Both the position numbers and the translations under genes were made by a program. DNA of 64,000 bases from Akkermansiaceae bacterium (GTDB lineage Bacteria > Verrucomicrobiota > Verrucomicrobiia > Verrucomicrobiales > Akkermansiaceae), in contig JAQWZU010000132.1 in assembly GCA_029253285.1 (NCBI GenBank), forward strand, positions 1 through 64,000, written 5' to 3'. The notes below the pieces were generated by a model, which saw nothing but the letters and a program-made list of their open reading frames with translations, made no database searches and was not told the DNA's origin. How positions within the stretch are numbered: position 1 is the first letter of the stretch; each line of letters starts with the position of its first letter. Shown piece after piece: positions 3-23,394 of the stretch.

Positions 3-90
<88 letters not shown>

Positions 91-11169: not shown

Positions 11170-12288
11170 TTAGGCACTTCGGGTTGCTCTCTGAAACAAG
11201 ATGATTCCGAGGCCAAGACAAATGATATTTGGGAGCCAGAGCGAAGCCAGAGAGGCTTCGAAATTCGCAGACTGCATTTCTTTGGCGAGAATGGTGAAGA
11301 GGAAATAACAAAACGCCACGAGGAGACTCAGGCCAATTCCCGCAGAGGATTCCTTTCGGCGCGAAGTCAGCGCCAGGGGGATTCCAACAAGACAAAGGGC
11401 GAGCGGGGCTAAGGAGAATGAATACCGGCGAATGGCTTCAAAGGAATACTTGTTCAGTGCTTCTTGATTTAATTCCTCGGGCGGATCGTTGAGCAACTCT
11501 GCGATTTGACCATTATCGAGATGTTTCGGTTTGGGGCGTCTTTTTTCATCCTCCTCGAGAGGGAGGGCCCAAGGTTCGATTTTGTCGGCCCAAGCAGATT
11601 GAAGATTTGCGTCACGATTATATTTTTCGAGGTAGGCTCCGGTGAGTCGAAGATCGATGCGATCCGAGCCGGGAATGATTTCGGCGGGGGGGACAACATG
11701 ATCGGCATAGACGTAGGCCAAGGGAAGGGAGCCGGGGTTTTCATCGTCAATTTGATAAAAATGGAATCCCCGCAGGCTATTGTTCTTATCACGCTCCTCG
11801 ATGTAGATCCGCTGTCCTTTCAGTCGGGACTGCACTACGCTGGGATCGAGAAGGCGGTTGGGATCGCTTTTTAGTTCATTATAGAGCATTTGCTTCAGGT
11901 TGCCTTTTGAGCGAGGGGAGACCGTGGCATTGAGCCACAGGCAGAGTATCGAGAGAGCCAGTCCAATTAGGATCACCGGAGCGGCGATGCGGACGAGGCT
12001 CATTCCGCTGCTTCGTAAGGCATTGATTTCCTGATCTCCCGATAGTCTTCCGAAGACGAGAAGGACGGCTGCCAGGAATCCCCAGGGGATGGTGAAGACG
12101 AGTGAGACCGGGAGAAGCTGTATCGAGAAGATCCAAAGAAAGGAAATCCCGGCACCTCGTTCGACGAGGATCTCGTGAATTTGCTTAAAGATATTTCCAA
12201 AGACGAGCACGCCGCTCAGAAGGACCACCGCAAAAATGGTCGTCGCCAGAACCTGGCGGATCAAATAGCGGTCAAATTTGCGAATCAT
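11170..12288 (-). CDS. LptF/LptG (YjgP/YjgQ) family permease
   Basis: A 372-residue inner-membrane protein of the LptFG family, the permease pair that extracts lipopolysaccharide from the inner membrane for transport to the outer membrane. It has three N-terminal transmembrane segments (about residues 12-120), a periplasmic jellyroll domain of about 150 residues, and three C-terminal segments. The N-terminal FDRYLIRQVL is family-typical. No second copy or LptB is adjacent. Its presence indicates a diderm envelope. Confidence 0.9.
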   Translation of the reverse strand: MIRKFDRYLIRQVLATTIFAVVLLSGVLVFGNIFKQIHEILVERGAGISFLWIFSIQLLPVSLVFTIPWGFLAAVLLVFGRLSGDQEINALRSSGMSLVRIAAPVILIGLALSILCLWLNATVSPRSKGNLKQMLYNELKSDPNRLLDPSVVQSRLKGQRIYIEERDKNNSLRGFHFYQIDDENPGSLPLAYVYADHVVPPAEIIPGSDRIDLRLTGAYLEKYNRDANLQSAWADKIEPWALPLEEDEKRRPKPKHLDNGQIAELLNDPPEELNQEALNKYSFEAIRRYSFSLAPLALCLVGIPLALTSRRKESSAGIGLSLLVAFCYFLFTILAKEMQSANFEASLASLWLPNIICLGLGIILFQRATRSA

Positions 12289-12411: not shown

Positions 12412-12504
12412 GGAGAGTGCTGCGTGCCTGGTGGTCGCCGCGGTTTTCAAAACCGTTGAAGCTCAATTCGGGCTTGGTGGGTTCAATTCCTTCCCTCTCC
12501 GCCA
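12412..12504 (+). tRNA. tRNA-Sec-like class II tRNA, anticodon UCA, irregular acceptor/T branch
   Basis: A 93-base cloverleaf can be drawn, ending in encoded GCCA and followed by seven Ts. The anticodon stem GCGGT/ACCGT closes a loop TTTCAAA, giving anticodon UCA, which reads UGA. The D-arm (GCGTGCC, TGGT tetraloop, GGTCGC) forms the extended 6-bp stem with one bulge that is typical of bacterial selenocysteine tRNAs. A 6-bp variable arm (AAGCTC/GGGCTT) follows, then a TTCAATT T-loop. Only 12 bases separate the T-loop from the discriminator instead of the 13 of ordinary bacterial tRNA-Sec. There are mismatches at 12418/12494 and 12478/12492. It could be a functional variant, an opal suppressor-like tRNA, or a decaying copy. 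No selA, selB or selD lies in the window. Confidence 0.62.
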
Positions 12505-21013: not shown

Positions 21014-22633
21014 GTGAGCAATAATCCTCCAAGTATTTTCAACGACGTCCTGGGCCCGGTCATGCGGGGACCCAGTAGTTCTCATAGTGCCGCAGCCAAT
21101 CGCATCGGAAGGCTTGCTCGGGATCTCGCTGGGGAACCGGTTAGGAAATTGGTGGCGCGCTATGACCCCAATGGATCGTTGGTGACGACACACAAAGACC
21201 AGGGAACCGACATGGGGCTCTATAGTGGAATTTTGGGGTGGAGTCCTGATGATGACCGGATGACCCGAGTCGATAAGGCTCTCGTGTCAGAAGGAATCGA
21301 AGTGGAGGTTCTTTATGAAAACTACGATGCTCCGCATCCCAATTTTTATCGATTGGAAATCACGGGTGAGAGCGGTGATGTTTATGCTCTGGATGCCATT
21401 TCTACAGGTGGTGGTATGATCGAATTAAAGGCGATCGATGGAGTGGCAACAGGTGGGATTGGAGACCTTAATTCACTTCTTTTCTGGTTTGATGAAGAAC
21501 CAGAAATTGAAACTCATATCTTAGAAAACTCGGAGAAGAGCGAGTGGCTCCCTCGAATTGAAGGTGGCGGAATATTTAGGATCGATACACGGGAAGACTA
21601 CTCGAACGAGAATGTGGCTAAGTTGGCAGAGTTTCTAAAGGCTGGAAAATTTAGAGCGTTGAAGGCGGTTTTACCCGTGCTTTCAAGGAAGGATTTAGCG
21701 GTACCATTTTCGAGATGTGGCGAGCTATTGAGTCATCCTCAACTCAAGGGGAAATTGCTCTGGGAAGCTGCTGCTGCCTATGAGGCAGAGCGTGGAGGGA
21801 TTTCATCCACCGAAGTCATTCAACAAATGAAGCAATTAGCCGAAGTGATGGCGGCAGCGGTCACAAGCGGGCTTTCCGGAACAAGTTATCAGGACCGTAT
21901 CCTGCCATCGCAGAGTCCGGGCATGGTTCAGGCGGAGGAGGCCGGGAAATTAATTCCAGCAGACATCAATAATCGCATCATTCGTTACGTCTCGGCGATC
22001 ATGGAGGTAAAGTCATCGATGGGAGTGATTGTTGCGGCTCCAACCGCCGGATCTTGCGGTGCGATGCCTGGTGCGGTTCTGGCAGTGGCTGACGCGCTCT
22101 CGGTCAGCGAAGATGAACGGGCGAGAGCACTTTTGGTCGCTGGTCTGATTGGGGTATTTATCACCAAGGATGCCACTTTCGCTGCAGAAGAAGGCGGCTG
22201 TATGGCTGAGTGTGGCTCCGGTTCGGCAATGGCTGCTGCTGCCATTGTTCATTTGGCGGGAGGAAGCACCGATGAGCAAATCACGGCAGCATCGATGGCA
22301 TTACAGAATAGTTTCGGAATGGTTTGTGACCCGATCGCTAACCGGGTCGAAGCGCCTTGCCTGGGTAAAAATGTCATGGCAGCCACCAATGCTTTATCAT
22401 GTGCCAACATGGCCTTGGCTGGATACGATCACCTGATCCCTTTCGACGAAGTTGTCGTTGCGATGAATCAAGTGGCGAAACAAATTCCCCGCGAATTACG
22501 CTGCACAAATCTCGGGGGGCTTTCCATTACCCCGACTGCTGAAAAGATTGCCGAACGACTCAGCGGCTGTGGATCCGGATGCGGATGCGCGCCCACGACC
22601 GAAGATCAATCATCGGCTAAAGTCCCCGTGTAG
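21014..22633 (+). CDS. L-serine ammonia-lyase, iron-sulfur type, single chain
   Basis: A 539-residue enzyme converting L-serine to pyruvate and ammonia through a [4Fe-4S] cluster. The N-terminal beta domain contains GPSSSHSA near residue 20, and the C-terminal alpha domain contains PTAGSCGAMPG and GCMAECGSG, which hold cluster cysteines. The C-terminus is unusually Cys/Gly-rich (GCGSGCGC before the last residues). I chose GTG at 21014; a TTG at 21002 would add four residues. The 3' end overlaps that of the convergent fdhD gene by 28 bases. Confidence 0.92.
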   Translation: MSNNPPSIFNDVLGPVMRGPSSSHSAAANRIGRLARDLAGEPVRKLVARYDPNGSLVTTHKDQGTDMGLYSGILGWSPDDDRMTRVDKALVSEGIEVEVLYENYDAPHPNFYRLEITGESGDVYALDAISTGGGMIELKAIDGVATGGIGDLNSLLFWFDEEPEIETHILENSEKSEWLPRIEGGGIFRIDTREDYSNENVAKLAEFLKAGKFRALKAVLPVLSRKDLAVPFSRCGELLSHPQLKGKLLWEAAAAYEAERGGISSTEVIQQMKQLAEVMAAAVTSGLSGTSYQDRILPSQSPGMVQAEEAGKLIPADINNRIIRYVSAIMEVKSSMGVIVAAPTAGSCGAMPGAVLAVADALSVSEDERARALLVAGLIGVFITKDATFAAEEGGCMAECGSGSAMAAAAIVHLAGGSTDEQITAASMALQNSFGMVCDPIANRVEAPCLGKNVMAATNALSCANMALAGYDHLIPFDEVVVAMNQVAKQIPRELRCTNLGGLSITPTAEKIAERLSGCGSGCGCAPTTEDQSSAKVPV

Positions 22634-23394
22634 AGATTTAGCGTGGGAGGTCGCAGAAAGCCTACCAGTGTCTGGTTTGAGTTCTTTGCGAAATCGACAG
22701 CAAGAGACGATGGTGCGGAAATTCCGGCAACAAAAGAGATTCCTGCCGCGAGCGATTTTTGCATCAGTTCAAATGAGATGCGACCCGATAGAAGGAGAAA
22801 GCAATCTTTCAATTCTATCGAGTCACGTAAGCTTTCTCCGATGACTTTATCGAGAGCATTGTGGCGCCCGATATCTTCGCGCAGCATCAGTAACTCCCCA
22901 TCTTTAGAGAAAATCCCCGAGGCGTGAAGCCCTCCGGTTGCCTCGAAAGTGGCTTGGACCGAGCGCATCTTTTTCGAAGCCGCCAAAAGGACTTCGCGAT
23001 TGAGCTCCAGCGTATATTCGATCGCGGGATGATTTTGAAGAATCGCATCGATCGTCGCTTTTCCGCACAAGCCACAGGAGGAAGCTGAAAATAAATGACG
23101 TGTTAACCTCTCCCAATCGCATTCATGATCATCATCGAGAAAAACCAGGGCGTGATTTTCTCTGGCTTCGAGGTCGATTCGTTTTACCTCATTTATGTCC
23201 GAAATGATTCCTTCGGTCATCAGGAAACCCAATACCAGAACTTCATCTTCTCCCGGAGTTCTCATTAAGACGGCGAGAGGTCTTCCGTCCACGATGACCT
23301 GGAGCGGTTCTTCCACCGCAAGATGATCCTGCACCAAGGAATCACCAGCTGGACTTAGTTTGTGAACTGAGGATTCTTTTGATCGGGGATTCAT
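22606..23394 (-). CDS. fdhD: formate dehydrogenase accessory sulfurtransferase
   Basis: A 262-residue protein that transfers sulfur from IscS to the molybdenum cofactor of formate dehydrogenase. The family's redox CxxC lies in SSCGLCGK near residue 100, and the central GGLHASG and REDIGRHNALDKVIG motifs are present. No formate dehydrogenase or cofactor-synthesis gene is adjacent. The gene implies that the genome encodes a molybdenum or tungsten formate dehydrogenase elsewhere. The stop codon lies inside the end of the serine dehydratase gene. Confidence 0.94.
   Translation of the reverse strand: MNPRSKESSVHKLSPAGDSLVQDHLAVEEPLQVIVDGRPLAVLMRTPGEDEVLVLGFLMTEGIISDINEVKRIDLEARENHALVFLDDDHECDWERLTRHLFSASSCGLCGKATIDAILQNHPAIEYTLELNREVLLAASKKMRSVQATFEATGGLHASGIFSKDGELLMLREDIGRHNALDKVIGESLRDSIELKDCFLLLSGRISFELMQKSLAAGISFVAGISAPSSLAVDFAKNSNQTLVGFLRPPTLNLYTGTLADD

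Follow-up and report, generated by a model that had tools for sequence, protein, structure and literature searches.

A conserved twelve-position tRNA-Sec with two fixed non-pairs in Akkermansiaceae

The window analysed here, a stretch of 64,000 nucleotides from an Akkermansiaceae bacterium, carries a selenocysteine tRNA gene (selC) on its forward strand. ARAGORN calls tRNA-SeC (tca) with exact bounds at 12412-12504, and Rfam model RF01852 matches positions 12412-12500 with 54 bits (E 3e-9), above its curated cut-off of 47 bits and as the sole such match in the 4.3-Mb genome. Both results agree with the preliminary description, which had proposed a tRNA-Sec at this place from the UCA anticodon, the long variable arm and the encoded CCA. 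A match to SNORD35 was rejected as chance, being below its own cut-off and located within a coding gene. The features are as follows.

12412..12504, + strand: tRNA-Sec gene (selC) with UCA anticodon and encoded CCA (ARAGORN; RF01852, 54 bits)
12412..12418, + strand: 5' strand of the acceptor stem, positions 1-7, U7 being 12418 (sequence; 4-69 and 5-68 compensated in relatives)
12419..12421, + strand: linker of 3 nt joining the acceptor to the D-stem, made up of G8 and CU (sequence)
12422..12438, + strand: D-arm with 6-bp stem, UGGU loop and bulged U at 12425 (RF01852 alignment)
12439..12458, + strand: long anticodon arm, UCA at 12447-12449, bulged U on the 3' side (sequence; all cells paired)
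12459..12475, + strand: long variable arm with 6-bp stem and 5-nt loop (RNA fold)
12477..12493, + strand: T-arm with G49-C65, U50.U64, G51.U63, G52-C62 and G53-C61 (sequence; relatives)
12494..12500, + strand: 3' strand of the acceptor stem, positions 66-72, C66 being 12494 (sequence)
12501..12504, + strand: discriminator G73 and CCA (sequence; G73 in 35/35 relatives)
22606..23394, - strand: fdhD, accessory sulfurtransferase for formate dehydrogenase (TIGR00129, 188.3 bits, cut-off 140.9)

The tRNA reads GGAGAGU-GCU-GCG[U]GCC-UGGU-GGUCGC-CGCGGU-UUUCAAA-ACCGUUG-variable arm-GUGGG-UUCAAUU-CCUUC-CCUCUCC-G-CCA and shows the hallmarks of bacterial tRNA-Sec, with UCA as anticodon, G73 and a long variable arm. 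Its D-stem of 6 bp with a bulged U and a 4-nt loop, which is covarying, corresponds to the form recognised by SelA; stem and TGGT loop had been described before, whereas the bulge at 12425 had been missed. T-loop and discriminator are separated by 12 nt (C61 to C72) instead of the usual 13, and two positions of this branch are non-paired, U7.C66 (12418/12494) and U50.U64 (12478/12492), both the length and the mismatches being as previously noted. With 12 positions, the molecule falls outside the canonical 8/5 form with its 13-bp acceptor plus T branch, while the 7 residues between T-stem and G73 place it in the 12-bp (7/5) class of Secmarker. As the 5' side of the acceptor counts 8 nt and the 3' side 7, either a bulged U7 or an extra linker nucleotide is possible.

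The genome encodes the partners required for using such a tRNA. Profile searches reveal SelA (490.6 bits), SelB (291.7 bits with TIGR00475, above cut-off, with the SelB-specific wing and beta-barrel domains present), SelD (373.5 bits) and the formate dehydrogenase alpha subunit FdhA (733 bits). SelD and FdhA each contain one in-frame TGA which, when read as selenocysteine, results in SSCGGUASKLG and CSRAUHAPTVAGLA, respectively, and which we take to lie at the known Sec/Cys positions of both families. Downstream of the UGA in both fdhA and selD, a hairpin with a GGUC-type apex is found, presumably resembling the SECIS of E. coli fdhF and hence a candidate SECIS by this resemblance. From FdhD in the window, the preliminary description had expected an encoded formate dehydrogenase and had suggested a search for selA, selB, selD and a UGA-containing fdhA, all of which are present. 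This set of genes points to a working tRNA-Sec gene, which is very probably in use.

The two mismatches, the position missing relative to the 8/5 standard and a fold only modestly better than shuffled sequences (z -1.95) might also be taken as signs of a relic, i.e., a decaying selC. However, the same features recur throughout the family. A 12-nt branch is present in 58 of 59 Akkermansiaceae tRNA-Sec rows, in which some loci are counted twice, the remaining row having an inserted C, and among the 35 distinct sequences from 8 genera that make up the conservation set, position 7.66 is U.C in 33, position 50.64 is U.U in 34 and G73 is invariant. Other parts of the molecule vary in a compensated manner, with acceptor pairs 4-69 and 5-68 showing compensatory changes and the D-arm having 98.8% of its cells paired in the alignment of relatives, including 3 pairs changed on both sides. 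A control set of 54 distinct non-Sec tRNAs, taken from the retrieved loci, shows pairing at 50-64 in 52 and at 7-66 in 53. Decay, for which absence of the sel genes and of UGA-containing genes together with loss of the element in close relatives would have spoken, is thus rejected as most improbable, given the conservation across 8 genera, the intact selA, selB and selD and the two Sec-UGA genes. Judged from the sequences, the short mismatched branch is a shape conserved across Akkermansiaceae. Two individual tRNAs may be mentioned besides. In contrast to the tRNA-Sec, a tRNA-Ser(UGA) at the contig start (window 3-90, - strand) has both 7-66 and 50-64 fully paired. One relative's tRNA-Sec (L061:2920-3013) has an additional C on the 3' side of the acceptor stem (CCUCCUCC) that would disturb the stem, due to either sequencing error or decay.

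For assigning the register of the branch, pairing and covariation were followed in an alignment of 28 distinct tRNA-Sec sequences. Pair 49-65 is G-C in 25, A-U in 2 and C-G in 1 and never unpaired, while the alternative pair 8-65 of an 8/4 register is broken in 4 sequences and reduced to G.U in 2; in the alignment test, 8/4 scored slightly below 7/5. Since 49-65 is compensated and 8-65 breaks or weakens in the same sequences, a 7/5 register, in which the U.U is an integral part of the T-stem, is favoured over 8/4, and 49-65 being kept paired right beside 50.64 being kept unpaired speaks for both states being under selection. The acceptor end of this register is less firm because G8 could pair with C66 over a bulged U7 in 31 of the 35 relatives, such pairing being excluded in the members with A8 or C8. 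A functional tRNA-Sec in which G8 pairs with C65 or C66, with SelB still measuring an 8-nt 5' acceptor strand and the mismatches being structural and without any role against EF-Tu, would also accord with the acceptor bulges 3a-5a published for other 12-bp tRNA-Sec (PMC5330540, in the part dealing with these forms). In view of the A8 and C8 members and the compensation at 49-65, we regard this alternative as unlikely, albeit deserving of serious consideration. Accordingly, the earlier framing of the branch as 8/4 or bulged was right in part, the compensatory change at 49-65 now favouring 7/5.

The tRNA follows selA through the family. In 145 Akkermansiaceae genomes, both are found in 49, the tRNA alone in 1 (the MAG G060), selA alone in 16 and neither in 79, corresponding to a Fisher p of 2e-23 that ignores shared ancestry. 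At genus level the two distributions coincide, with 8 genera out of 16 having both. In the 16 MAGs with selA alone, an Akkermansiaceae-specific tRNA-Sec model matched only other tRNAs, apart from a fragment in G074; a pattern search of the selA-positive genomes without Rfam match likewise located a partial tRNA-Sec at a contig end of G074 and, besides, only unrelated matches. These 16 genomes look like drafts, and since the 3' side of the tRNA gene often lies at a contig end, incomplete assembly is the likely explanation for the absent gene, as it is for the lack of selA in G060. In named records, the same tRNA is found in MAGs of Akkermansiaceae and other Verrucomicrobiales. The association with selA bears on another reading, namely a general UGA (opal) suppressor inserting serine or cysteine in the manner of selC* tRNA-Cys or allo-tRNAs, which also show a 12-position branch and UCA anticodon in the section of PMC7609411 treating them. 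However, selC* has U73 and an unpaired A51a bulge, whereas G73 is present and A51a missing here; the D-arm has the 6 bp required by SelA; and TIGR00475 gives just one match above cut-off, so that a second selB is not present in the genome. With G73, the long variable arm and the 6-bp D-stem being features of tRNA-Sec and SerRS recognition, and with presence tracking selA, the suppressor reading is rejected as highly unlikely. Hence, of the three options originally offered for the locus, the functional variant is retained while decaying selC and UGA suppressor are dismissed.

In 11 of 49 genomes, against 1.4 expected, a contig ends no more than 600 bp from the 3' side of the tRNA-Sec, compared with 2 genomes for the 5' side. 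In one relative, L073 (3' flank at 1121-2905, - strand), a tyrosine integrase gene (PF00589) begins about 64 nt past the tRNA, and the 3' flank holds an AbiEii-type toxin gene in L068 and a transposase in L071; in Akkermansiaceae, selC seems to serve as an integration site. An lptF/lptG gene (window 11170-12288) adjoins the tRNA head to head in the window and in L022, and the tRNA is oriented oppositely relative to the same gene in L058 and L075.

In a sample of the phylum, the same type of tRNA-Sec (starting with GGAGAG, 12 nt, lacking a standard 7.66 pair) is encoded in four further Verrucomicrobiota families (f6, f32, f73 and f76). U50.U64 is kept in f32, f73 and f76, whereas f6 combines the 12-nt branch with a U50-A64 pair, indicating that the U.U is dispensable in some lineages. 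Ten other Verrucomicrobiota families of the sample possess 13-nt (8/5) tRNA-Sec. A different 12-nt type, with fully paired T-stem and shorter D-stem, is present in f64, f29 and f69 (loci L122, L124 and L178).

Altogether, we are highly confident that the locus is a functional, single tRNA-Sec gene with a 7/5 branch. Gene, partner genes, in-frame UGAs and conservation are observed and the register is supported; charging, conversion, decoding and the role of the conserved non-pairs are proposed as follows. SerRS would charge the tRNA with serine via G73 and the long variable arm, SelA, recognising the 6-bp D-arm, would convert it to Sec-tRNA using selenophosphate supplied by SelD, and SelB would bring it to the UGA codons in fdhA and selD. 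The tRNA is without the extra pair, and its branch equals that of tRNA-Ser in length. In a review, the long acceptor stem is named as main SelB determinant (PMC7609411), and in E. coli tRNA-Sec, C7-G66, G49.U65 and C50-G64 are SelB identity elements that reject EF-Tu (PMC9976931). U7.C66 and U50.U64 coincide with two of these three discrimination sites, which suggests, by analogy, that the conserved non-pairs substitute for the missing 13th pair. They might assume the role against EF-Tu and in favour of SelB normally played by the longer branch and, together with the 6-bp D-arm for SelA, could hold the tRNA in the selenocysteine pathway. That a non-standard pair can matter is known from eukaryotic tRNA-Sec, in which a conserved non-Watson-Crick 5a.67b pair is required for function (PMC7609411). 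The broader idea that the branch became shorter by one base pair in several Verrucomicrobiota families, which instead repel EF-Tu and attract SelB through fixed non-pairs at 7.66 and 50.64, is put forward tentatively, as a possibility somewhat more doubtful than probable. If true, this would be a second, differently solved bacterial way of excluding Sec-tRNA from general translation. EF-Tu avoidance by a short tRNA-Sec becomes testable through two point changes.

Compared with the canonical 8/5 form represented by E. coli selC, the Akkermansiaceae tRNA-Sec shares UCA, G73, 6-bp D-stem, 4-nt loop, long variable arm and CCA, but is one position shorter, has a bulged U in the D-stem and shows non-pairs at 7.66 and 50.64. 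With selC* and allo-tRNAs, in the sections of the literature describing them, it has the 12-position branch in common and with some of them the UCA anticodon; selC* tRNA-Cys, however, is of the 8/4 type with U73 and A51a bulge, in contrast to G73 and lack of A51a here, and allo-tRNAs are 8/4 or 9/3 and unlinked to selA and selB, whereas the compensation at 49-65 favours a T-stem of five positions. The closest relatives are the 12-bp (7/5) bacterial tRNA-Sec published in 2017 with Secmarker (PMC5330540), which likewise have 12 positions from T-loop to G73 and, in the part of that paper concerned with them, are assigned to Gamma- and Alphaproteobacteria, Clostridiales, Spirochaetes, Rubrobacter and Dehalogenimonas, so that the preliminary description was correct in placing such variants in several phyla. 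Types A-C have an acceptor bulge and type D an extra linker nucleotide 7a. For some lineages, the paper also gives an anticodon-stem bulge (43a) and a D-stem bulge (13a), two stems that are bulged in the present tRNA as well. The term 'Verrucomicrobia' is absent from the main text of this paper, and its 12-bp section makes no mention of U7.C66 and U50.U64 as conserved non-pairs. As far as that section extends, the Akkermansiaceae tRNA-Sec is therefore a new lineage of an already published form, which gains one whole family and four more Verrucomicrobiota families. While reviews set tRNA-Sec apart from ordinary tRNAs by a 13-bp branch or long acceptor stem, this tRNA-Sec has the branch length of an ordinary tRNA, yet bears fixed non-pairs at two known SelB/EF-Tu sites.
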